From: Chloroflexota bacterium
GTDB lineage: Bacteria > Chloroflexota > Dehalococcoidia > GIF9 > UBA5629
DNA length: 35,796 nucleotides
NCBI GenBank assembly: GCA_016875925.1
Contig: VGOO01000003.1
Span: forward strand, 1-35,796
Direction: 5' to 3'
The translations under genes were made by a program, and so were the position numbers. Positions 2,941 to 32,884 of the stretch are shown here, one piece after another. A model generated the notes under the pieces. The model ran no database searches. It had not been told where the DNA came from and saw nothing but the letters and a program-made list of their open reading frames with translations. The first letter of the stretch is position 1. Every line of letters starts with the position of its first letter.

Positions 2941-5900
2941 ATGGGCATATCCATGAAAAACAGATTTAAGAGACCAATCGGCCTGCTGGTCATTGCCATA
3001 GCGATTATAGCCAGCATAATACCAAACACATACCCTCGCCCAGCGCTGGCCGACCCTGGCGTTCTGAAGTGGGACCGTGCCTACACGCCTGGGAGCATCG
3101 TTACCAAGAATGACATCGCCAGCCCCTGCGAGGTCAACCGCATCGCCATCGGCTCGGACGGCAAGACTTTTTACGCCGTAGACATCCCCAATGCAGACAA
3201 TTCCGCTGGCAGCAACGCCCTTTACAAATCAACAGATAGCGGCATAAGCTGGGGCGATAAAATCGGCCAGAACTTGTATCAAAGCATGTCCCCTGCTGAA
3301 CAAGCCAACTTTCGCATCTGGAATCTGGCAACTGCCCCCGATGACGTAAATTTCATAGCCGTGGTCACCAACAACGCTATCAGCAATCTACCACGAAACA
3401 TCTGGGTATCCAGCAACGGCGGCTCCCAGTGGCACAACACCAATTTCAGTGGCCCCCATAACATCAACGCCATCGATATCTCCTCAAACTACGCCAGCCA
3501 TGACATTTGCATCGGCACCAGAGACGGCAATGGCAACGGCAATGTCTGGGTTCTGAATGGCCCAGATTACCTCACCTGGGCAGACCAGGCATTCACCGGA
3601 GACATTATGTCCCTGGAGTTTTCTCCCTCATACCAAAACGACTTTGCCATTGCTCTTGTCTATTCAAATGCCAAGGGAACATACGTTAATGTGGGATTCC
3701 ATGACGTTAACCAAAGCTCCACCAACTGGGTAGCCTCTTATGGAGGCTCCCCCCCTGAAATCACCGCTGGCGCTGCCAGCACATCACCTAATGCCAGCCA
3801 GATTATCACCGCAGGCCTGGAGTTGCCCAGCGACTTCTCCGGCCAATCCCCCAGCTTGCGTCGCTATTACATCTGCACGGACGATGCAGGAGTCACTGGC
3901 CAAGCCGGCATTTACCGCATAGACAACACCCACTTGTACAACCTGATGAAAGCCACACCGACAAAACGGATTTGCACCATTGCTTACCACGGCACATTTG
4001 CTTCTGGCAAGCTATTAGCCGGCGAGGTGTTGGGCAACACCCGCGCTGCCACCGTCATGACATGGTTCACCGATTCGCCCACCACCTGCCCCATACCCTG
4101 CTGGTATCCCGCTCTAAAGCCAGCCACCGGCGCCGCCGGCAGCGATAGCTGTGCCGGCTCGGGCTACGGCAACGCCCAGGTCGCATGGTCTCCCGATGGT
4201 TCAATCGCCTATGCAGGCACCGCCAGCAGCGCCCCACTGCGCCCCGGCCCCGATTGGCCAACGCCATATCTAACAGGACAACCACTGGACGAATCGGCCT
4301 TCTCGCTTAGCCGTAATAACGGTGAGACCTGGAATCAGCTCGCCCTGATAGACACCCAAATCAGCCGCTTCACAGACATCGCCCCAGCACCCAATTGCTC
4401 GACCCTCTACCTAGCTTCTGTAAGTGACAATGTCAATTGTTCAGGATTCGACAGCGTCTGGCGTAGCCAGGGTTCACCCCTGGGCAACGATTGGGAACGC
4501 GTACTCTGCCAGCTAACCACAGCGCAGGATTGCGCCATCGGACAAACAGACAACGCCATTCTGGGGCTGGCCGGCAACAAACCTGATGGACAAATTGTTT
4601 TCTGGGCAGCCGTAGGTACCACCAAACTCATGTGGTCGCCAGACTTCGGAGATTACTGGACCAATATAAATACCAGGCTAGCCATACAGGACATGGCACC
4701 AGAGGACAGCAAGACCCTGTACCTCCTCAGCCCCGACGGCTGGGTGCAGAAGTTCAGTTATAGCGGGACTGGCTGGGTTCTGGAGCAGAACACGCTAACA
4801 GAGCTCGGTGCTGCTTACAGCATCGCCACCGCCTATACCGGAATAACGCCGGACAACCACAAGGGACATGTAATCGTGAGCGGGACTGGCGTCGGGCCTT
4901 ATGACGTTGCCTATTCCATAGACGGTGGGAATACCTTCAGCCATGTTCCCACCTCGCTTCCCACGCAAGGAAACACGCTGGTGGTCGCCAGTTCCGCCTA
5001 TAGAAGCGATGGCTATATCCTGGCTATAAACTCAGGTGGCATGTACGCCTGTGGCATCTACTCCGGAACCGACGAGTGGGAAACATGGTGGGGCGGTATC
5101 GCCTGGCCCACCCCGGTCACCAGCCTGGCCATATCCCGCAACTACAGCTTCTACTTCTGTGAACCAGCTACCTGGGCCTCAGCCACGCCCTACGTCAGAT
5201 GGTCAGCAGCTCTCGCAGGCTTAGACCCAACCGTTTCGCTGGGAACAGCAGACCAACCAACCAGAAGATTCAGGATATGCGGCGGCATGGAATTGGGTGA
5301 CCCTATAACCATCTGGACTATCGACCAGCAGCCCTACAATCCTCCCCAGGGTGGAGTTTGGAATTACACCGACACGCTGGCATGGAACGGCCCCAGGCCA
5401 GTGGCACCGATATCAGAGGCAGCTGTGGACTGCGACCCTGTCTCCGGCAGGGCTGGCCAGATAGATTTGCAATGGAAGCCTATCTCCCTATCTCGCGGAT
5501 ATCGAATCGAGATAGCCAAGGACGAAGACTTTGCCCTGAAGGTCGCTGACATTGGCAATATATGGGGAGGAAAGACCTCATCTCTCAGCCCGATTCCCGC
5601 TCCTACCACATATGCCCCTTACGTGCCGCCCGACCTCGATGCTCCGGCTTTAGTCATCCCGCCAAGCGGTGGCACAGTAATAGACGCCAATGGTAATACC
5701 TGGAATGTGCCCCCGCTGGAAGCCAACCACACCTATTACTGGAAGGTCACTGTTCAGGATGTTGTCACCGGCGATGCCATCACCAGCCCGTCATCATGGC
5801 GCGAGATATTCAAAGTACGGCCCGGCCTGCCAGTCAACGCTAAATACCTGGGACCGCAACTGCTGTCTCCCAATAATGGTTGCATCGGTTGCAGCATCAA

Positions 5901-6252
5901 ACCGGCATCATTTTCCTGGTCGCCTTTCCAGGGGACAACCAGATACAGGTTCGTACTGGCCAAAGACCCGACTATGACCGAGGTCATCACGGACACCGAA
6001 GTCAACACCACAGCCTATGAATTCAGCGGCATTCTGGAACCTGGCATCATCTACTTCTGGCGCGTAAAAGCACTTGAACCGTTCCCCAGCGACTGGAGCC
6101 CCACTTTTTGCTTCCAAACGCAACCCAATCCTGTTCCACAATCCACACAAAATTCGCCAGCAGTTCCGGCTTGGACATGGGCAATTATCATCATCTGCCT
6201 GCTCATAGACATTGCCTTACTCACCTTCATCCTCCACCGCCGCTTGCGATAG
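2941..6252 (+). CDS. Secreted BNR/Asp-box propeller protein with Fn3-like repeats and C-terminal membrane anchor (putative S-layer-type protein)
   Basis: This is a 1103-residue surface protein; starting at ATG 2953 would give a tighter signal peptide, and neither start has a clear SD. A signal peptide (LLVIAIAIIASIIP, cleavage near ALA-D) leads into a long beta-propeller region with Asp-box motifs (STDSGISW, SSNGGSQW, SRNNGETW, SIDGGNTF). A CPIPCWY motif and a second Cys-containing loop may form disulfides. The last ~250 residues hold two Fn3-like modules (YRIEIAKDEDF and YRFVLAKDPTM), followed by a membrane helix (WAIIIICLLIDIALLTFIL) and RRLR, placing the bulk outside the cell. It is paralogous along its length to 8549-11734 and over the propeller to 31199-32884. 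BNR-repeat proteins of this size are the putative S-layer proteins of Dehalococcoides; a structural surface role is inferred. Confidence 0.85.
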   Translation: MGISMKNRFKRPIGLLVIAIAIIASIIPNTYPRPALADPGVLKWDRAYTPGSIVTKNDIASPCEVNRIAIGSDGKTFYAVDIPNADNSAGSNALYKSTDSGISWGDKIGQNLYQSMSPAEQANFRIWNLATAPDDVNFIAVVTNNAISNLPRNIWVSSNGGSQWHNTNFSGPHNINAIDISSNYASHDICIGTRDGNGNGNVWVLNGPDYLTWADQAFTGDIMSLEFSPSYQNDFAIALVYSNAKGTYVNVGFHDVNQSSTNWVASYGGSPPEITAGAASTSPNASQIITAGLELPSDFSGQSPSLRRYYICTDDAGVTGQAGIYRIDNTHLYNLMKATPTKRICTIAYHGTFASGKLLAGEVLGNTRAATVMTWFTDSPTTCPIPCWYPALKPATGAAGSDSCAGSGYGNAQVAWSPDGSIAYAGTASSAPLRPGPDWPTPYLTGQPLDESAFSLSRNNGETWNQLALIDTQISRFTDIAPAPNCSTLYLASVSDNVNCSGFDSVWRSQGSPLGNDWERVLCQLTTAQDCAIGQTDNAILGLAGNKPDGQIVFWAAVGTTKLMWSPDFGDYWTNINTRLAIQDMAPEDSKTLYLLSPDGWVQKFSYSGTGWVLEQNTLTELGAAYSIATAYTGITPDNHKGHVIVSGTGVGPYDVAYSIDGGNTFSHVPTSLPTQGNTLVVASSAYRSDGYILAINSGGMYACGIYSGTDEWETWWGGIAWPTPVTSLAISRNYSFYFCEPATWASATPYVRWSAALAGLDPTVSLGTADQPTRRFRICGGMELGDPITIWTIDQQPYNPPQGGVWNYTDTLAWNGPRPVAPISEAAVDCDPVSGRAGQIDLQWKPISLSRGYRIEIAKDEDFALKVADIGNIWGGKTSSLSPIPAPTTYAPYVPPDLDAPALVIPPSGGTVIDANGNTWNVPPLEANHTYYWKVTVQDVVTGDAITSPSSWREIFKVRPGLPVNAKYLGPQLLSPNNGCIGCSIKPASFSWSPFQGTTRYRFVLAKDPTMTEVITDTEVNTTAYEFSGILEPGIIYFWRVKALEPFPSDWSPTFCFQTQPNPVPQSTQNSPAVPAWTWAIIIICLLIDIALLTFILHRRLR

Positions 6253-6289
6253 ACAACAGCACAAACAAGAATACCCATACACTTGACTA

Positions 6290-6318
6290 TCGACAATTGT
6301 CCCGTGTAGCACTATAAT
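6290..6318 (+). promoter_or_regulatory. Predicted sigma-70 promoter immediately before the Ig-like protein gene
   Basis: TCGACA (6290-6295) and a consensus TATAAT (6313-6318) are separated by exactly 17 nt. Transcription would start near 6325, leaving a leader of only about 8 nt before ATG 6333. The ORF-track TTG start at 6318 overlaps the -10 hexamer. Confidence 0.6.
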
Positions 6319-6332
6319 TGTTTGTTAGAGAG

Positions 6333-8489
6333 ATGAGATTTCTTCATCAGCATAAGTCCACACCTGACGGACTACTTCTCAGGATAATTGCCCATCTGCT
6401 ACCCGTCATGTCCTTATTGATAGGCATCAGCCTATCGCTGGCAAGCCCAGTGCAGGCACAGCCATCCATCTACCCCTCCCCCCTGCCCAACGGCCAGGTT
6501 GGCACACCCTACACCACAAATCTTGTTGCCACAGGAGGCTCGCCACCCTATACATGGAGCATCATCAGCGGAGCTTTGCCACCGAATTTGACATTAAACG
6601 CAGCAAGCGGCACCATCTCGGGCACCCCGACTACAGCAGGGACTTTTAGCTTCGTTGTAAGAGTCACCGACTCAGCAGCAGGCACTGGACAGCAGGGTTT
6701 TTTCATCACCATCACCTCGCCACCATTGACATTCCTCACCAGCAGCCTGCCTGACGCCAAGGAAAACACTACCTACGCTACAACGGTAAGTGTCAAGGGA
6801 GGAACTGCACCCTACACCTACTCCATCGTTGGCGGCTCGCTGCCTACGGGATTAAAGCTGTCAGCAACCACTGGCCTTATCTCTGGCGTCCCCGCCAAAG
6901 GCACCGCAGGCACCACCAGCTTCGTCATCGGTGTTACCGATAGCTCTTCACCGCAGCTTTCCGGCCAGCAGAGCTTCACCCTGCTCATAGAAAAGGGGGC
7001 TTTCGAACCGCTGGTCACCATCGGCAGCGGCTTGAAAGCAGGCGAGACCAAGGTCATCGCCGGCACCCAGCTCGTAGCCACGCTACGTGGTGGCGAATCA
7101 GTGCGTCTCTCCATGGAGCTGGGCACCAGAACAACGGTAGCCGTTGACCAAATCGTCAATCACCCAAACAAGAGCGATGTCAGATACAGGGCTGAAGTAG
7201 ACAAAATGACGGTGAGCGAAACCTCCCCATCAATCGAGTTCCCCTACTATGCTGAATACAAGATAGACTTCGAGGCCGACCCCTCTGACGTCACCCAGCT
7301 TTCAGGCTCTGGCTGGTATAAGGAAGGTTACACGCTAAGATCCACCGCCCCAGAACAGGTCACCACATCTGACAAGCCAGGCACGCAGTACCGCTTTTCT
7401 CAGTGGGTATTGCCCACGGGAGAAACCCAATCAGGCAGAGACCTGAAGCTGACCGTTGAAGCGCCCGGTACCTGTGTTGCCAGGTACGATACCTACTACC
7501 AGCTCACCCTTATCTCGCCCTACGGCGACCCACAGGAAAGCGCATGGTATAAAGCAGGTAGTCAAGTAGAGTGGCAAACTGATACCAGGGAAGTCAAAAT
7601 ACCGGGCATCCTTGGCGTCTTCGGTGGCAAGATGAAACCGCTTAAGAGCAGCGACACCGTTCTCATGGATGGCCCCAAGACAGTTGAGGTGAAATGGGCA
7701 CCAGACTATACCATGCCCATGCTTCTGATACCGCTGGCAGTGTTACTGCTTACGGCAGGTATCTATGGCCTGTATCGGCTAGCAAGCCCACGACCCAAAC
7801 CCACGCCCTGGGCTCCACCAGCGTGGGCTCCACCCCAGATGATGTACCAACCACCTCCACCACCTCAGACCACGGTAGTATTGATGGGAGGAGAACAACA
7901 AAAACAACTGCCACAATCAACCAAAGAACAGCTCATGGAAAAGTTCGGTGAGCTTCTGGACAAGTACGGAGAGGAGATCAAGACTACTCTGCAAGCCGGC
8001 CAAGGCCCAGCATTGCCTGCTGCAGATACCCTCAGAGTGGAGAAGAGCCTGCCCCTAGGAGAAACCGCACCACCACCCACGGTCGAGGCTGAGTTCGCTC
8101 CTGCTGAAGCCACAGAAGGAACCCTGCTCTGCAACTTCGCCTCCAAGAGACTGCTACGAGCAGTTGCCGGAAATTGGAAACAGACAGGTACCAGGCCAGC
8201 TTCTACATCTGGCGAAGAACCGCCCGAAAGTACTGCCTTCGTCGTCGTCTGGTCCAGGGATATATACCAGGAATGGGAAATCTTCAACTGCTCCCTGCCA
8301 CCATCCCATAAAGGGACACACGAGGGCGAAACCCAGACGGTATACACCTTGCTCAATACCATCACCGAAGAGAGAACCTACGAAGCAGAAGAGGAGATAA
8401 CCCCACCCAAGCCTCACTACACCGATGGCATGCCACAAGTCGATGTATCCGCTAAACAGATAGTCAATCCAGACGAGCTTCCTGACTAA
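6333..8489 (+). CDS. Membrane protein with extracellular Ig-like (He_PIG) domains and a long cytoplasmic tail
   Basis: I choose ATG 6333 over the TTG at 6318 because the latter lies in the promoter. The 718-residue product has a signal peptide (LLPVMSLLIGISLSLASPVQA), then two putative-Ig (He_PIG-type) domains recognisable by TGGSPPYTWSI...GSL/GALP...LSGVPA-type motifs at about residues 45-220. A region with GWYKEGYTL and AWYKAGSQV follows, resembling the divergent InlB B-repeat family. A single membrane helix (MLLIPLAVLLLTAGIYGLY) at about residues 460-480 is followed by RPKP and a Pro-rich stretch. About 230 further residues are predicted to be cytosolic and match no family I recognise. It sits between two propeller paralogues with gaps of 80 and 59 nt and is probably co-expressed with them as a surface-assembly partner. 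Confidence 0.78.
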   Translation: MRFLHQHKSTPDGLLLRIIAHLLPVMSLLIGISLSLASPVQAQPSIYPSPLPNGQVGTPYTTNLVATGGSPPYTWSIISGALPPNLTLNAASGTISGTPTTAGTFSFVVRVTDSAAGTGQQGFFITITSPPLTFLTSSLPDAKENTTYATTVSVKGGTAPYTYSIVGGSLPTGLKLSATTGLISGVPAKGTAGTTSFVIGVTDSSSPQLSGQQSFTLLIEKGAFEPLVTIGSGLKAGETKVIAGTQLVATLRGGESVRLSMELGTRTTVAVDQIVNHPNKSDVRYRAEVDKMTVSETSPSIEFPYYAEYKIDFEADPSDVTQLSGSGWYKEGYTLRSTAPEQVTTSDKPGTQYRFSQWVLPTGETQSGRDLKLTVEAPGTCVARYDTYYQLTLISPYGDPQESAWYKAGSQVEWQTDTREVKIPGILGVFGGKMKPLKSSDTVLMDGPKTVEVKWAPDYTMPMLLIPLAVLLLTAGIYGLYRLASPRPKPTPWAPPAWAPPQMMYQPPPPPQTTVVLMGGEQQKQLPQSTKEQLMEKFGELLDKYGEEIKTTLQAGQGPALPAADTLRVEKSLPLGETAPPPTVEAEFAPAEATEGTLLCNFASKRLLRAVAGNWKQTGTRPASTSGEEPPESTAFVVVWSRDIYQEWEIFNCSLPPSHKGTHEGETQTVYTLLNTITEERTYEAEEEITPPKPHYTDGMPQVDVSAKQIVNPDELPD

Positions 8490-8548
8490 CCCCATAACCT
8501 GTCTGGCCTGACAAATAATTCCACTTCCCAATCATAACTCTAACAACG

Positions 8549-11500
8549 ATGCGCAGATTTAAAACAGGGTTACTTCACAAACCCGATAGAATTCACCGAA
8601 AGAGGCAGGTTCTTAAACCCGCCAGCCATCTCCAACAGCTCGTACTAACCTTGGCTTTATTCATAGCTGTCTGCCTTAGCCTCTTTCCTGCTTCAAACTC
8701 AGCCCAGGCTGACACTCTAAAGTGGACCGTGGTTGACACACCCAGCGCCCAAAATAACATTGTCCTAAGCCCATCCGAGGTCAATGCCATCGCCATCGAC
8801 CGTGATGGCAGAACCTTCTACGCTATCGATATACCCAACGGCAAGGTATTTAAATCAGTCAACAGTGGTATTGGATGGGATAATATCACGACGATTTTGA
8901 CCAACGCCGGCGCCGTTATGCCGGCCTGGCACATAGCACTAGCACCGGATAATCCCAACTTCGTAGCCATAGTAACCAGCACCGCCGCTGCGCCCAGAAG
9001 GGTTTTTGTCTCGGTCGACGGGGGTAACAATTGGCATGACACCAACTGCACAGCCACCAGCAACATCAGCGCACTTGACGTGTCACCAAATCGGAACGGC
9101 TACAACGTCATGGTTGGCACCAGAACCGGAGCCGGCAACGGTGATATACTCACTTACAGAGCCGTAGGCATGGACAACTGGGCATCCCAGGGATTTATCG
9201 GCGATGTTCTGTCAGCCAGGTTTTCGCCCAATTATGCCGCAGATGCTAGCCTGGTAATCGTTGCCGCTAGAGCCACCGGTACCACTATCAATCTTGGCAT
9301 TCACGACCCGGCCGCCAATACCACCAACTGGAGTACCTGGAGCCCAGTAGAGGTGACCACAGGAGGTGCCGGCACTTCACCAACCTCAGCCAACATTATA
9401 AGCGCCGACTTGGAACTCCCCATAGATTTTTCCGGTCAGGCTCCTTCCCTGCGCCGGTTCTACGTCAGCACTGACGCCCCTGTACCCAACGCCGGAATCT
9501 ATCGCTTCGATGATACCGCAGGCTACTTGCTCATGCCTGCCGCATCCACCAAGCGGATTTCCAGCATCGCCTATTTCGGCACCTATGCATCGGGCAAACT
9601 GCTGGCTGGAGAGGTTACAGGCAACCCAAACTCAGCGCAGGTCAATACCTGGTTCACCGATGCTCCTACCACCTGTCCTATCCCCTGCTGGTACCAGGCT
9701 AAGAAGCCACCCACCGGTGCCGCCGGCACAGATGCTTGTGCCAGCTCAGGCTACGGTAACGCCAAAGTCGCCTGGTCAGCCGATGGTTCAGTTGCCTATG
9801 CTGCTACCGCTAGTAGTCTTAGCCTGATTCCTGGTCCCAACTGGCACACTCCATACCTAACAGGAGAGGATTTTGATGAATCGGCATTTTCCATCAGCCG
9901 AGATAACGGTCAACTCTGGAACCAGCTAAGCCTGATAGATACAGGAATCAGTTTCCTCTCAGATGTAGCTGTTTCAGCTAACTCTGATACCCTGTACCTG
10001 GCATCCATCAACAGCCATGCTGGCTGCAACGGCTTTGACAGCCTGTGGCGAGGCCATGGCCAGTCCACCTACAAGACCTGGGAACGCGTGCTGTGCCTAA
10101 CCGCCACCACCAATTATACCCTCGTCAGGATGAACCAGGCTAAACCGCAGTCTGTTTTCCTGGGCATCTGTTCCACTGCTAACCTGTATGCATCGCTAGA
10201 TGGAGGCCAAAGCTGGCAAAATATCTTCCCCGGCATCAACGTAACTGACTTCGCAGTCTCACAGGGCAAGACAGCATTACAAATATACGTGCTGGAAAAC
10301 AACTATGTGTGCAGAGCTGAAGGCAGCTTCCAAGCCTGGCAATGGAAACAGAAAATGGACACCGGATTGGCAACAGGACATTCCATAAACGTCTCGCCCA
10401 ACGGCATCATCACCGTGGGCGATGCTGGCGAGGGTAAGGTAGCCTTCTCTGCAGACAATGGCAACCAGTTCATCAGCCTCCCCCCTGTGCCTGCGCCAGG
10501 TAACATTCACGCTGTCGCCGACCCCAGAATCACAAAATACATCGTCATTTACGCCGGCAGCGACAGCCCTGGTGGCAACATCGACGCATGGGTGGTCGGC
10601 GCCACTCAGAACTGGATAGATATGGGAGCGCCACAGCGAAGTACCTACGGGCTGGCTCAAGGCGGAACGCTATACGGCGCCTGGTCAAAAGGCGGGAACA
10701 GCGGAGTCAACCGCACGCTGAACCCTGAGTCCCTGGCAGCTACCTTTGTAGAATGGGATAACCTCACCGCTGGCCTACCCGCTGGCGTGGTCTTCACCAG
10801 AGAGCCATCATCGCTGAAAATATCAGGAAGCGTTGACCTCTGGGCCATCGATAACCGCCCATACACAGCTAACACCGGCAGACTCTGGGTTTTCTACGAT
10901 TGCTTCGGTGTTGGCCCCCAAATTACAACGCCGCCAAGCCGGGAATTGCTTTTGGCAGCCCCTACCCCAATAGCACCAGCAGCCAATGCCATCATGCCGA
11001 TAGACCATGACAAAGGCACTATCGCCGACATTGTATTCAGATGGAGACATCCTACTCAGGCACGAAAATATGAGCTGCTGGTGGCCAAAGACAAAGAGTT
11101 CAGCCAACTGGTTACTCAGCAGCCCATAATTCCGGACAGCCCGCTCATGCCCACCTGGACGCTATCCGCCAAGGAAATAGCGCTGGAACCCACCTCCACC
11201 TACTACTGGAAAGTGCGAGTCACGCGCGATGCCACCAGCGAACCCGCCGAAGGCCAGTGGTCAGAGATAATACCCTTCTCTATAGCCGCAGCGCCAGAGA
11301 AAGAGCTATCTGCCCCCGGTCCCGAGTTGCTCACGCCAGCCAACGGCGAAACTATGGTTAACCAATCACCATCCTTTACCTGGCAACCAGTAAGCGGGGC
11401 CAATAAATATGAACTCACCCTGGCTAAAGATAGAAACCTGAAACAGCCAATCATTAGAGCCCAGATCTCCGGGACAGCCTATCAATATGATGGGACATTA

Positions 11501-11734
11501 GAACCAGGCAGAAGCTACTCCTGGCAGGTGAAAGTGATTGAGCCCCTCGTCAGCCAGCCCAGTCCCCTGTTCAGCTTCACTGTGTCACCGGAGCCCGCCA
11601 AACCACAGCAGAAAACAGATGGCATACCACAGACGGTAAACATAGTTACCCTGCTCTGGATAGCCATACCACTTCTCATAGTCATAATTGCTATCATCTG
11701 GCTCATCGCAGCACGAAACCGCTCCTACCGCTGA
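8549..11734 (+). CDS. Secreted BNR/Asp-box propeller protein, second paralogue, membrane-anchored
   Basis: This 1061-residue paralogue of 2941-6252 has the same order: signal peptide (long basic n-region, then LVLTLALFIAVCLSLFP, cleavage near AQA-D), propeller with Asp boxes (SVDGGNNW, SRDNGQLW, SLDGGQSW), the CPIPCWY motif and downstream Cys loop, two Fn3-like modules (YELLVAKDKEF, YELTLAKDRNL), a C-terminal helix (LLWIAIPLLIVIIAIIWLIA) and RNRSYR. The two proteins align throughout (for example SPSLRR[YF]Y and GKLLAGEV), so they arose by duplication flanking the Ig-like gene. No clear SD precedes ATG 8549; it may be translated from an operon message. A structural or adhesive surface role is inferred from the family; no catalytic sialidase residues were identified. 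Confidence 0.83.
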   Translation: MRRFKTGLLHKPDRIHRKRQVLKPASHLQQLVLTLALFIAVCLSLFPASNSAQADTLKWTVVDTPSAQNNIVLSPSEVNAIAIDRDGRTFYAIDIPNGKVFKSVNSGIGWDNITTILTNAGAVMPAWHIALAPDNPNFVAIVTSTAAAPRRVFVSVDGGNNWHDTNCTATSNISALDVSPNRNGYNVMVGTRTGAGNGDILTYRAVGMDNWASQGFIGDVLSARFSPNYAADASLVIVAARATGTTINLGIHDPAANTTNWSTWSPVEVTTGGAGTSPTSANIISADLELPIDFSGQAPSLRRFYVSTDAPVPNAGIYRFDDTAGYLLMPAASTKRISSIAYFGTYASGKLLAGEVTGNPNSAQVNTWFTDAPTTCPIPCWYQAKKPPTGAAGTDACASSGYGNAKVAWSADGSVAYAATASSLSLIPGPNWHTPYLTGEDFDESAFSISRDNGQLWNQLSLIDTGISFLSDVAVSANSDTLYLASINSHAGCNGFDSLWRGHGQSTYKTWERVLCLTATTNYTLVRMNQAKPQSVFLGICSTANLYASLDGGQSWQNIFPGINVTDFAVSQGKTALQIYVLENNYVCRAEGSFQAWQWKQKMDTGLATGHSINVSPNGIITVGDAGEGKVAFSADNGNQFISLPPVPAPGNIHAVADPRITKYIVIYAGSDSPGGNIDAWVVGATQNWIDMGAPQRSTYGLAQGGTLYGAWSKGGNSGVNRTLNPESLAATFVEWDNLTAGLPAGVVFTREPSSLKISGSVDLWAIDNRPYTANTGRLWVFYDCFGVGPQITTPPSRELLLAAPTPIAPAANAIMPIDHDKGTIADIVFRWRHPTQARKYELLVAKDKEFSQLVTQQPIIPDSPLMPTWTLSAKEIALEPTSTYYWKVRVTRDATSEPAEGQWSEIIPFSIAAAPEKELSAPGPELLTPANGETMVNQSPSFTWQPVSGANKYELTLAKDRNLKQPIIRAQISGTAYQYDGTLEPGRSYSWQVKVIEPLVSQPSPLFSFTVSPEPAKPQQKTDGIPQTVNIVTLLWIAIPLLIVIIAIIWLIAARNRSYR

Positions 11735-11977: not shown

Positions 11978-12835
11978 ATGAGAAATGACGGCTTTGACCA
12001 ATTCAAAGGCTCCCACGACTACGTAACTTCCGAACCGCTGCGAAACGCCGTAAACGTTTCCATAGCGCTGGGAAGACCACTGCTCGTTCGCGGCGAACCG
12101 GGAACTGGTAAGACACTCCTGGCGCACAGCATTGCCAAGGGTCTGGGCAAGAATCTCATAGTATGGAACATAAAATCCACCACCAAGGCTCAGGAAGGCC
12201 TTTACGTTTATGACACTGTACAAAGGTTGAACGATAGCCGCTTCGGCGACAAAGATGTCTCCAACATCAAGCACTATATCAAGCTGGGCAAACTGGGACA
12301 GGCGTTCACCTCCAAAGAACAGGACGTACTCCTCATCGACGAAATCGACAAGGCAGACCTGGAGTTTCCCAATGACTTGCTCAACGAGCTTGACGAAATG
12401 AGCTTCTACATACCAGAGACAAACGAGACCTTCAAGGCAATCCACCGTCCCATAGTAATCATCACCAGCAATGCCGAAAAGGAGCTTCCCGATGCCTTCC
12501 TCAGGCGCTGCATCTTCCACTACATCGAGTTCCCCGACCCATCCCTGATGGAGGAAATAGTCAGAGTGCATTACCCGGACCTAAAGAAAAGCCTGCTGGA
12601 ACAGGCCATGTCCGCCTTCTATTCCCTGCGCCAGATCGACCAGTTCCGCAAGAAACCATCCACCAGCGAGCTGATAGATTGGATCCACGCCATCCTGGCC
12701 AGCGGCATCGGCAGCATAGACCCCGCGAAAGAGTTGCCGTTCCTCAGCACTCTTATCAAGAAGGAATCGGACTATAACCTCTTCATGACTACCTACGCTA
12801 AGAGAAGACAACTCAAAGTATCAGAGACATCTTAG
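11978..12835 (+). CDS. MoxR-type AAA+ ATPase
   Basis: The 285-residue protein is a stand-alone AAA+ module. It has Walker A GEPGTGKT (Lys45), Walker B LLIDEIDKA, sensor-1-like IVIITSN, and an arginine-finger candidate in DAFLRRC. No signal peptide or membrane segment is present, so it is cytosolic. MoxR ATPases act as chaperones or activators and are usually encoded next to a VWA protein, as here: 12860-14026 follows 24 nt downstream. AGGAGA precedes the ATG at a slightly long 11-nt spacing. Better-known MoxR/CoxE-type pairs help insert metal centres or activate enzymes; no client enzyme is visible nearby, so the client is unknown. Confidence 0.9.
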   Translation: MRNDGFDQFKGSHDYVTSEPLRNAVNVSIALGRPLLVRGEPGTGKTLLAHSIAKGLGKNLIVWNIKSTTKAQEGLYVYDTVQRLNDSRFGDKDVSNIKHYIKLGKLGQAFTSKEQDVLLIDEIDKADLEFPNDLLNELDEMSFYIPETNETFKAIHRPIVIITSNAEKELPDAFLRRCIFHYIEFPDPSLMEEIVRVHYPDLKKSLLEQAMSAFYSLRQIDQFRKKPSTSELIDWIHAILASGIGSIDPAKELPFLSTLIKKESDYNLFMTTYAKRRQLKVSETS

Positions 12836-12859
12836 GTAACGCTATAGCCGAAGGGAAAC

Positions 12860-14026
12860 ATGTTCACCGATTTCTTCTATACCCTCAGGGAAAGAAGTGT
12901 CCCCGTCTCGCTCACCGAATGGATGGCACTGATGGAGGCACTCTCCAAGGGCTGCATCACCAACTTGGATGAATTCTACTACCTGGCACGCGCCATCCTG
13001 GTGAAAAGCGAAGCCTATTACGACCAGTATGACGTAGCCTTCCAGGAATGCTTCAAGGGCATCCAGGTCCCTCCGGAAATTACGGAACAGATTATGGAGT
13101 GGCTCAAAGACCCGTTCAATCGCTTACAGCTCAGCCCAGCGGAAATGGCCCTATTAGAAACCATGAGCCTCGATGAGCTGATAGAAGAGTTGGAGAAGAG
13201 GCTGCGAGAACAGGACGAGCAACACGATGGCGGAAATTACTGGATAGGCAGAGGCGGCACATCGCCCTTCGGGCATTCAGGCGCCCACCCCGCCGGCTTC
13301 AGGCTCGGAGGCTCTGGAGGTGGCAGGAGCGCCATGAAAATCGCCGAGGAGAGAAAGTTCCGCAACTACCGTCATGACTTAACCCTAGACGTACGCCAGA
13401 TCAAAGTAGCCTTGAGGCAGTTACGACAGTTAAACCGTATTGGTCCTGAAGAGCTAGACCTGGATGGCACCATAGATGCCACCTGCAAGAACGCCGGAGA
13501 ACTGGAGTTTATCTGGAAACGCAGCCGTAAGAACGCGGTGAAGCTGCTACTGCTGATGGACGTGGGAGGCTCAATGGAACCTTTCGCTCACCTCTGCAGC
13601 CTGCTCTTCTCCGCTGCCCATTCCAGCAGCCACTTCAAGGACTTCCAGTATTACTACTTCCACAACTGTGTTTATGATTATCTCTACAAAGATATTGAGC
13701 GCCGCGACAGAATAGGCATCGACCACGTGCTGCGCACCACTGAATCAGATTACAAGGTGGTGCTGGTCGGTGATGCCTGCATGGCATCATCGGAGTTGAT
13801 TGATTCTCTTGGCTCTATCTACTACTACGAACGCAACTACAGGCCAGGCATCGCCAGGCTAAAGCAAATAGCCCAGCACTTCACCCACTGCATCTGGCTC
13901 AATCCAGAATCCAAAAGCTACTGGAACCATCCTACCATCGCCGCCATTGCCAAGGTCTTCCCCATGTACGAGCTTACTATCGAAGGCCTGGGCCAGGCCG
14001 TCAAAAAGCTCATCGTTAAACGCTGA
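12860..14026 (+). CDS. VWA domain-containing protein (CoxE-like), partner of the MoxR ATPase
   Basis: The 388-residue cytosolic protein has an acidic helical N-terminal half, a Gly-rich linker around residues 130-155 (GSGGGRS), and a C-terminal VWA-like domain beginning near residue 225. The metal-ion-dependent adhesion site reads DVGGSM (Asp234), where the family usually has DVSGSM, so the first MIDAS serine is replaced by glycine. Further conserved-looking segments are FHNCVYDYLY and LVGDACMASSEL. It lies 24 nt after the MoxR gene and is certainly co-transcribed. The pair is expected to remodel or metallate a client protein. The function is known only at family level. Confidence 0.86.
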   Translation: MFTDFFYTLRERSVPVSLTEWMALMEALSKGCITNLDEFYYLARAILVKSEAYYDQYDVAFQECFKGIQVPPEITEQIMEWLKDPFNRLQLSPAEMALLETMSLDELIEELEKRLREQDEQHDGGNYWIGRGGTSPFGHSGAHPAGFRLGGSGGGRSAMKIAEERKFRNYRHDLTLDVRQIKVALRQLRQLNRIGPEELDLDGTIDATCKNAGELEFIWKRSRKNAVKLLLLMDVGGSMEPFAHLCSLLFSAAHSSSHFKDFQYYYFHNCVYDYLYKDIERRDRIGIDHVLRTTESDYKVVLVGDACMASSELIDSLGSIYYYERNYRPGIARLKQIAQHFTHCIWLNPESKSYWNHPTIAAIAKVFPMYELTIEGLGQAVKKLIVKR

Positions 14027-31111: not shown

Positions 31112-31198
31112 AGACTCACACTCGTCTTCTCGCTATAGCCAGGCTTCAATCAAATCATGGTGGATTGAAAGGTGACAGTCAGCTACAATACTAGTAAG

Positions 31199-32884
31199 GT
31201 GAATAAGCCGAGACCGCTCAAAAAAACCTTAAAACTACTAGCTATCATCTCCCTTGTTACTCTAGCAGCCGCATCGTGCGGACCTAACCTGCCACCTGTC
31301 ACCCCTCCACAACCCACCCAACTTACCCTACCATCCCCACCACCAGAACCACCCCCAGACAACACAGCACCAGAGACCATAATCAACAGCAGCCCTGGCA
31401 AAACCGTCAACCAGAACGCCGTCACCTTCCAATGGACAGGTACGGATGATAAAACGCCCACACCCGACCTGACCTACTCCTGTTACCTTGCCGGCTACGA
31501 TGCTGATTACTCCCCATTCACCAGCGATACCACCAAGACTTACTCCAACCTGCCAGATGGCACCTATACATTTTATGTCAAATCCAGAGACGCCGCCGGC
31601 AACGAAGACAAAACACCAGCCAGTGTGGAGTTCACCGTCCAAACTATCAAGCCATCGCCTGTCACGCCAGCAGCCCCGGTAGACAGCAGTCTGCTCATAG
31701 TCCCCAATAGCAATGTCAGCCATATCGCAGTTGGCCCCGATGGTAAAGCCATATACGCCATCGATGCCTTCAACGCCAAACTGTACAAGTCGGAGCAAGG
31801 CGGCTTTGGCTGGATTGACTCATCCAAAGGCATCGGTGGAGCCTCCGCCTGGGACGGACTTGCCGTAGCACCTGATGATGCCAATGTGGTCGCCATAATT
31901 GCCGATAGTGGCACCGAAGTCTATTTATCCACCAACGGTGGCACTAGCTTCTACCGAATGGGGCTGGCCGGCACACTCAAGGCTAGCGAACGGGCTAAAT
32001 GCCTCGCCCTCTCACCAGTCTATGGCCAAGGCCGGCGTGAACTGGCTGTGGGCACCTCCACAAGCAATGGTGGCGGTAGAGTCCTGCTCAGCATAAGCTC
32101 TGGTATGAGCACTGCTTGGGCAGACATCAGCACCGGAGTCAGCGGTTGGCTACCTAGCAGCCCTCCCATAGCTGGCGCCGATGTCTTCGCCATCAAATAC
32201 TCTCCCTCCTTCCCATCCGATGGCACGCTCCTGGCTATAGTCGCCAGCAAGCCACCGCCAGATACCGACGATACCTATCTCTACATCGGTTTCAAAGATA
32301 TGGGCACCAGCAACATCGTCTGGAACTCCTTTCCCGGCTATCCTGTAGAAATATGCCAGCCTGGAAGCGATAGCCCAGGCACACCACTCACCTACGCTGA
32401 CCTAGCCCTACCCGCAGACTACAACGGTGCCAACCCTGCACATCGCCACGTCTATGCTTGCTGGACAGACAATCCAGCAGGGTCAACATCTGTAGGCAAT
32501 CCCAATGACAGTGTCTATCGCCTCGATGATACCATCGTCTACAGGCTGCTGGTACACAACGACGTAATCTGCAGTCTGGCACACTATGGTAGGTTCAGCC
32601 GCGGCAAGCTGCTTGCCGGCGCCTTAAACGCCAGGCCAGGTACCTTCGCTACAGGCCCACAGGTTTACTTCAGCTTCAACCCACAATCTGCATACCCCGC
32701 CTGGCAGGAAAGCCGTAAGCCCCCAACCGGCCCAGGCCAGGCACGAGTCGCCTGGTCTCCCGATGGCAACCTGGCCTATTGCGGCACAAGCTCCACTGCT
32801 CCAGGTGGCCACGACCAGAGCGCTTTCTCTATTAGCCGCTACAACGGCCTTACCTGGAACCAGACCGGACTGATAGACCTCTAG
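31199..32884 (+). CDS. Lipoprotein with N-terminal Ig/Fn3-like domain and half-length BNR propeller (third paralogue)
   Basis: I choose GTG 31199 because it gives a compact lipoprotein signal (RPLKKTLKLLAIISLVTLAAASC) and a TACAAT -10 at 31184-31189 lies just upstream; the ORF-track start is GTG 31172. After a Pro-rich linker comes one Ig/Fn3-like domain (VTFQWTGTDDKTP, GTYTFYVKSRDAAGN) at about residues 45-140. The rest aligns with the N-terminal propeller half of the two large paralogues (IYAIDAFNAKLYKSEQ, KLLAGALN, RVAWSPDGNLAYCGT), with Asp boxes STNGGTSF and SRYNGLTW. It stops at WNQTGLIDL, exactly where the others continue WNQ..LIDT for about 580 residues. It lacks the Fn3 pair and C-terminal helix, so the lipid replaces the membrane anchor. 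It also lacks the CPIPC Cys loops. Confidence 0.8.
   Translation: MNKPRPLKKTLKLLAIISLVTLAAASCGPNLPPVTPPQPTQLTLPSPPPEPPPDNTAPETIINSSPGKTVNQNAVTFQWTGTDDKTPTPDLTYSCYLAGYDADYSPFTSDTTKTYSNLPDGTYTFYVKSRDAAGNEDKTPASVEFTVQTIKPSPVTPAAPVDSSLLIVPNSNVSHIAVGPDGKAIYAIDAFNAKLYKSEQGGFGWIDSSKGIGGASAWDGLAVAPDDANVVAIIADSGTEVYLSTNGGTSFYRMGLAGTLKASERAKCLALSPVYGQGRRELAVGTSTSNGGGRVLLSISSGMSTAWADISTGVSGWLPSSPPIAGADVFAIKYSPSFPSDGTLLAIVASKPPPDTDDTYLYIGFKDMGTSNIVWNSFPGYPVEICQPGSDSPGTPLTYADLALPADYNGANPAHRHVYACWTDNPAGSTSVGNPNDSVYRLDDTIVYRLLVHNDVICSLAHYGRFSRGKLLAGALNARPGTFATGPQVYFSFNPQSAYPAWQESRKPPTGPGQARVAWSPDGNLAYCGTSSTAPGGHDQSAFSISRYNGLTWNQTGLIDL

Follow-up and report, generated by a model that had tools for sequence, protein, structure and literature searches.

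The window analysed here is a 35,796-nucleotide stretch (contig VGOO01000003.1, assembly GCA_016875925.1) from a Chloroflexota bacterium of the class Dehalococcoidia, whose source assembly comprises 1.68 Mb in 169 contigs with a contamination of 5.13%. It carries three large open reading frames on the + strand, described in an earlier note on this DNA as two giant surface propeller proteins bracketing a membrane protein with Ig-like domains. An ORF check of the window found them exactly where they had been placed, with the strand and architecture described, and topology predictions bore out the surface and membrane location of all three proteins. The first, P1 (2941–6252, 1103 amino acids, with an alternative start at ATG 2953), comprises a signal peptide, a tandem propeller, two Ig/Fn3 domains, a C-terminal TM helix and an Arg tail; its N-terminus is non-lipobox, the anchor being the C-terminal TM helix. 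The third, P2 (8549–11734, 1061 amino acids), has its propeller at about 8723–10897, its Ig/Fn3 domains at about 10964–11584 and its TM helix at about 11642–11725. P1 and P2 are 41% identical and belong to different ortholog groups, namely OG1, which is linked to btuF, and OG2, which lies 3′ of the middle gene. The source genome holds at least three more large members of the propeller family.

Upstream of P1, outside the region that the earlier note covered, lies a + strand gene for a BtuF-like substrate-binding lipoprotein (1598–2623). It is preceded on the same strand by a cobalamin riboswitch aptamer (RF00174; 1381–1506; Rfam score 40.5 bits against a gathering threshold of 31.5, E = 2.6e-8) and by an intrinsic terminator forming the expression platform (1543–1573), which a terminator scan and RNA folding resolved as 13 pairs followed by GTTTTTATTA. 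The btuF start is ATG 1598, after the SD sequence GAGGAGG at 1585–1591; a start at 1559 falls inside the terminator. The protein matches Pfam Peripla_BP_2 (E = 2.8e-41) and, in the PDB, vitamin B12-binding proteins (5ysc, E = 1.4e-27; 1n2z, E = 7.8e-19). Because it scored below the NCBIfam BtuF equivalog cut-off (106.7 bits vs 234), its ligand was assigned from the riboswitch and the cob context.

The end of btuF is separated from P1 by 317 bases, in which we found neither a second riboswitch or remnant of one nor, by terminator scan, a + strand terminator. Since this gap holds no second riboswitch, co-transcription of btuF and P1 in the window was assumed; with no riboswitch of its own, P1 would therefore depend for its control on read-through from btuF. 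The gap contains REP-like intergenic repeats (2640–2940) at the place where other genomes have a second riboswitch. A second riboswitch–btuF copy, 89% identical to that of the window, was seen on L201 (G000:C111); its upstream gene is the same as in the sister-species locus L142, and L201 is probably a sister-species contig in the bin.

The middle open reading frame, P5, spans 6318–8489 on the + strand and encodes 723 amino acids if counted from TTG 6318. A sigma-70-like promoter, TCGACA-17-TATAAT (6290–6318, + strand, 11/12 match), lies before it, and because TTG 6318 overlaps the −10 element the start is more probably ATG 6333, giving a gene of 6333–8489. The product has a signal peptide, two He_PIG Ig domains (Pfam E = 9.7e-27), InlB-like repeats, a TM helix (about 7710–7784), a Pro-rich linker, a conserved helix TxEQLMEKFGELL (about 7920–7994) and a cytosolic beta domain containing C and H residues (about 8133–8381). 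The InlB repeats are backed by Dehalococcoides proteins that are homologous at profile level and match Flg_new_2 (E = 3e-13 to 1e-9). In a structure model the TM helix falls at residues 460–484, the cytosolic helix at 530–554 and the beta domain at 601–683, so that the description of a protein with extracellular Ig-like domains and a cytosolic tail holds. This tail is strongly conserved, both in the helix motif and in the invariant residues C605, C658, H664 and H668 (numbered from TTG 6318), a set that looks like a metal site and may bind metal. Profile searches with the cytosolic tail (residues ~525–723) produced no meaningful match to a known family, and a fold search with P5 returned only generic Ig/cadherin and SraP matches.

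Immediately 3′ of P2 are a MoxR-like AAA gene and a CoxE-like VWA gene (11978–14026); the same pair follows P5–P2 in L129 (11107–13161), and the AAA protein 3′ of P2 weakly matches the bpMoxR of MoxR–vWA–propeller systems (E = 0.0015). Further along the window, 31172–32884 encodes a 570-amino-acid lipoprotein consisting of an Ig domain and the first part of a propeller only, and similar ORFs of ~525–610 amino acids recur across most genomes of the taxonomic family.

The propeller family and its Dehalococcoides relative

An AlphaFold model of P2 (mean pLDDT 83, from a 30-sequence alignment) has a signal helix at residues 25–44, 49 strands over residues 59–783 that make up a tandem beta-propeller, two Ig/Fn3-like domains at ~806–912 and ~922–1012, and a C-terminal TM helix at 1032–1059 with a short Arg-rich tail. 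Pfam gave weak, sub-threshold matches of P1 and P2 to Sortilin/BNR and Ig_Rha78A_N. The nearest solved relatives in a PDB profile search with the propeller family were a GH74 xyloglucanase and sortilin; the best bacterial Foldseek matches were GH74 xyloglucanases and double-propeller sensor domains, at global TM-scores of only 0.2–0.3, and the NF045728 glycosylhydrolase profile matched below its cut-off. Asp-box tandem propellers of the GH74 xyloglucanase and sortilin/Vps10 type (PMC2716378) have the Asp-box motif and a double or large propeller fold in common with P1 and P2 but are remote from them, and the catalytic context is absent here.

The propeller family was found in all 30 genomes of the taxonomic family, with 2–18 matches per genome, and its named relatives come from lake and sediment MAGs of Dehalococcoidia/Chloroflexi. 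Because the family is very large and most of its members have no B12 link, homology within it is by itself uninformative on B12. One full-length member (L010:1161–5045, G000:C73) is broken by a single in-frame TGA and has a long cytosolic tail, unlike other members; another is encoded on L187, a contig binned as Woesearchaeota that is likely misbinned.

A scan of the class gave three single-contig genomes of 1.36–1.52 Mb with 19–28 reductive-dehalogenase matches each, and in each of these rdhA-rich genomes there is one remote propeller homologue of about 1000 amino acids beside rho. The published Dehalococcoides S-layer peptide is AGIIDVPATADDATK (PMC6646388). In the G121 homologue, AGIIPAPTTASDAYK aligned to this peptide with 10 of 15 residues identical, exceeding all 300 shuffles, and because of this alignment the rho-adjacent homologue can very probably be identified with the putative S-layer protein. 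From the rdhA content together with the peptide match we infer that the three genomes are Dehalococcoides. The S-layer role of the Dehalococcoides protein is itself putative.

The homology to this protein that had been proposed for the propellers proved remote but full-length: hhalign of the window family against it gave a probability of 100% and E = 9.5e-65 over 902 columns at 21% identity, and the Dehalococcoides homologue matches Pfam BNR and fn3. The architecture of the Dehalococcoides mccartyi S-layer protein (DET1407/Q3Z6N3, BNR/Asp-box) is also that of P1 and P2, namely a signal peptide, an Asp-box propeller, two Fn3-like domains, a single C-terminal TM helix and an Arg tail. Unlike P1, the Dehalococcoides S-layer gene is a single copy adjoining rho and is linked to neither a riboswitch nor btuF. 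Riboswitches have been reported upstream of tceA and S-layer genes (PMC5102406); searches with Rfam and with our own covariance model found none of the cobalamin class ahead of the S-layer gene of Dehalococcoides (L110:12068–12342).

One gene away from the Dehalococcoides S-layer gene is a caspase-like TM protein with a double InlB repeat, which the P5 profile matches across the InlB–TM half. Homology of the neighbours thus extends to that half and not to the remainder, as the head of the Dehalococcoides protein is caspase-like and a cytosolic tail is missing from it, whereas P5 has an Ig head and a cytosolic tail. Secreted neighbours of this caspase-like kind (C14/C13), each with a TM helix and an InlB repeat pair, lie at L110:6487–8016, L111:5785–7314 and L112:5755–7287. 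The same neighbourhood as that of the Dehalococcoides S-layer gene, a pyrG–fsa–rho block, occurs at L013:1749–6837 (G000:C13), where it is flanked by a TM lipoprotein with only the Fn3 pair and by a secreted Ig-repeat protein.

Two conserved gene units

All 15 genomes seen with an OG1 propeller have a BtuF gene directly 5′ of it, and one of these genomes is from another taxonomic family. A separate tblastn test placed BtuF upstream of 10/10 OG1 loci and of 0/53 loci of OG2 or further propellers. Six riboswitch elements served to build a covariance model, which was run over 163 sequences and detected riboswitches 5′ of all OG1 loci with upstream sequence, the match in G004 being weak and partial; in G083, which is from the other taxonomic family, a riboswitch precedes the related BtuF–propeller locus. 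With this model a riboswitch was found upstream of 10/10 OG1 loci and of 0/52 other propellers in the L120–L190 set (Fisher, 9e-12), the linkage counts coming from related genomes, mostly MAGs, that share ancestry and are not phylogenetically independent. The riboswitch stands immediately before the propeller gene in six of these ten OG1 loci, and in at least four genomes btuF and P1 are each preceded by a riboswitch. Within the literature searched, no title or abstract of the papers in which Dehalococcoid, cobalamin riboswitch and BtuF all occur describes a riboswitch–btuF–propeller unit.

Genome-wide, in the genomes of the taxonomic family that were searched, this riboswitch family precedes only the BtuF–propeller locus and an operon of btuF2 with a FecCD-type permease and ATPase; in Dehalococcoides it precedes a cbiZ-like gene, a name given on visual reading of its sequence. 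Of the 30 family genomes, 29 lack CbiD (it was found in 6 of 14 controls), and these bacteria are therefore most likely corrinoid salvagers.

P2 behaves differently. In a tree of 74 propeller-family members it falls in an OG2 clade of 14 with support of 100, and P1 lies in a separate deep clade. Thus the two genes are paralogues, as had been proposed, but old ones, and a recent tandem duplication is ruled out. Of the 14 OG2 members, 12 visibly lie 3′ of P5 and two run into a contig end; at one of the latter, in G001, the P5 tail can still be seen. Counting all data, P5 and P2 are adjacent in 18 genomes, so that the idea of a dedicated membrane partner is borne out for P2; a few genomes (G020–G023) have P5 with no adjoining P2. 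The pair is often immediately 3′ of cobT–cobS–cobU, the genes for nucleotide-loop assembly: counting same-strand, Pfam-verified genes, and P5–P2 loci with 3 kb or more of sequence upstream, CobO/T/S/U were upstream of 5/8 OG2 (P5–P2), 2/8 OG1 and 0/24 other propeller loci. No cob genes were found near P5–P2 at L124 and L131, and no riboswitch was found directly before P5 or P2.

P1 was seen beside P5–P2 only in the window and in G029, which is from another genus and has a reverse-strand DegV-like gene between P1 and P5–P2. P1 and P5 lie deep in separate contigs in G003 (C1 of 279,695 bases and C13 of 58,160 bases) and likewise in G022 (C3 of 359,809 bases and C9 of 191,726 bases). A three-gene operon as the unit was rejected on this restricted occurrence and on the separate promoter match before P5. 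We conclude that the region consists of two separately conserved gene units side by side, riboswitch–btuF–P1 and P5–P2.

A probable B12-linked surface propeller

As its gene family is always paired with btuF and the riboswitch, P1 is probably part of B12 scavenging. The reading that we favour, at slightly better than even odds (about 0.55), is that P1 captures corrinoids at the cell surface as a TM-anchored propeller repressible by B12, and that P5–P2 is a separate module. When corrinoid is scarce the terminator would not form, so that both the lipoprotein BtuF and the propeller P1 would be made. P1 would be secreted and held by its C-terminal TM helix, with the tandem propeller, raised on a stalk of two Ig/Fn3 domains, capturing extracellular corrinoids or corrinoid-carrying material. 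These would then be handed to BtuF and on to a BtuCD transporter whose genes lie elsewhere, under a riboswitch of the same family. P2 would be a surface propeller made constitutively, with P5 holding or positioning it; through its Ig/InlB ectodomain, its conserved cytosolic helix and its Cys/His domain, P5 may connect the surface layer with the cell interior.

In Bacteroides, the seven-bladed propeller BtuG is exposed at the cell surface, is under riboswitch control and has a femtomolar affinity for B12 (PMC6143338; structure PMC10404256). Like P1, it is a surface beta-propeller encoded, together with B12 transport genes, in a locus that has a cobalamin riboswitch; however, BtuG is a single-propeller lipoprotein that caps outer-membrane BtuB, whereas P1, far larger, has a tandem Asp-box propeller, an Ig/Fn3 stalk and a TM anchor, and its partner gene is btuF rather than BtuB. 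No homology of P1 to BtuG (3DSM) was found, the PDB profile search giving GH74/sortilin instead; any capture of corrinoids by P1 would be BtuG-like in role, not by descent. The lineage that carries P1 is regarded as having no outer membrane. Net charge, considered as a marker of a BtuG-like acidic face, was not diagnostic. The P1 locus also resembles btuF–btuCD uptake operons in having a cobalamin riboswitch upstream and a BtuF-like binding protein, but has the giant propeller in place of their permease and ATPase; a btuF2–btuCD operon with the same riboswitch is present in these genomes.

A bolder version, which we hold only tentatively and consider rather doubtful as a whole, makes P1 the extracellular corrinoid receptor of bacteria that lack an outer membrane, a riboswitch-controlled tandem Asp-box propeller on a TM anchor that feeds BtuF and arose independently of BtuG, with P5–P2 as a second, constitutive propeller assembly recruited to cobTSU clusters, whose cytosolic Cys/His domain would couple capture to the interior.

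P1 might instead be repressed by B12 and yet not bind it, acting as an adhesin or docking protein that attaches starved cells to corrinoid producers or particles. The giant modular ectodomain with its Ig/Fn3 domains and TM anchor would suit such a role, and linkage to the riboswitch and btuF would suit any starvation response; however, the gene that invariably adjoins P1 is that of a substrate-binding protein and not of other adhesion functions, which points to the uptake path itself, and we regard the docking role as unlikely.

Slightly less likely again is the model of the earlier note, in which P1 and P2 form a two-component S-layer lattice with P5 as their shared membrane anchor. The full-length homology and common architecture with a Dehalococcoides S-layer-annotated protein that ranks among the most abundant proteins (PMC5102406) argue for it, as do the InlB–TM part that P5 shares with the neighbour of that protein's gene and the conservation of the P5–P2 pair. 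A link to btuF and a B12 riboswitch would be unexpected for a structural coat, though, and B12 control of P1 argues against its being a constant one. The bracketing arrangement, moreover, is confined to the window and G029, and 2–18 family matches per genome suggest varied surface roles. The lattice in which two paralogues bracket one membrane protein is not supported, given the tie of P1 to btuF and the riboswitch and its distance from P5–P2 in G003 and G022; P2 and the paralogues with no B12 link could still be S-layer proteins. It is improbable that the propellers act on or bind glycans as proteins of the GH74/sialidase-like Asp-box type, as the Foldseek, profile and NF045728 matches might suggest, given the low TM-scores, sequence matches confined to the Asp-box region and loci at which no glycan-use genes were noticed and the context is cobalamin salvage.

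Dehalococcoidia are widespread corrinoid salvagers, and Dehalococcoides depends on imported corrinoids for dechlorination (PMC4285132). A riboswitch–btuF–propeller unit with P1 as a corrinoid-capturing surface propeller is a direct, testable candidate for the concentration of corrinoids at the surface of cells without an outer membrane. Proteins that are annotated by homology as 'S-layer BNR' may likewise serve in nutrient capture.
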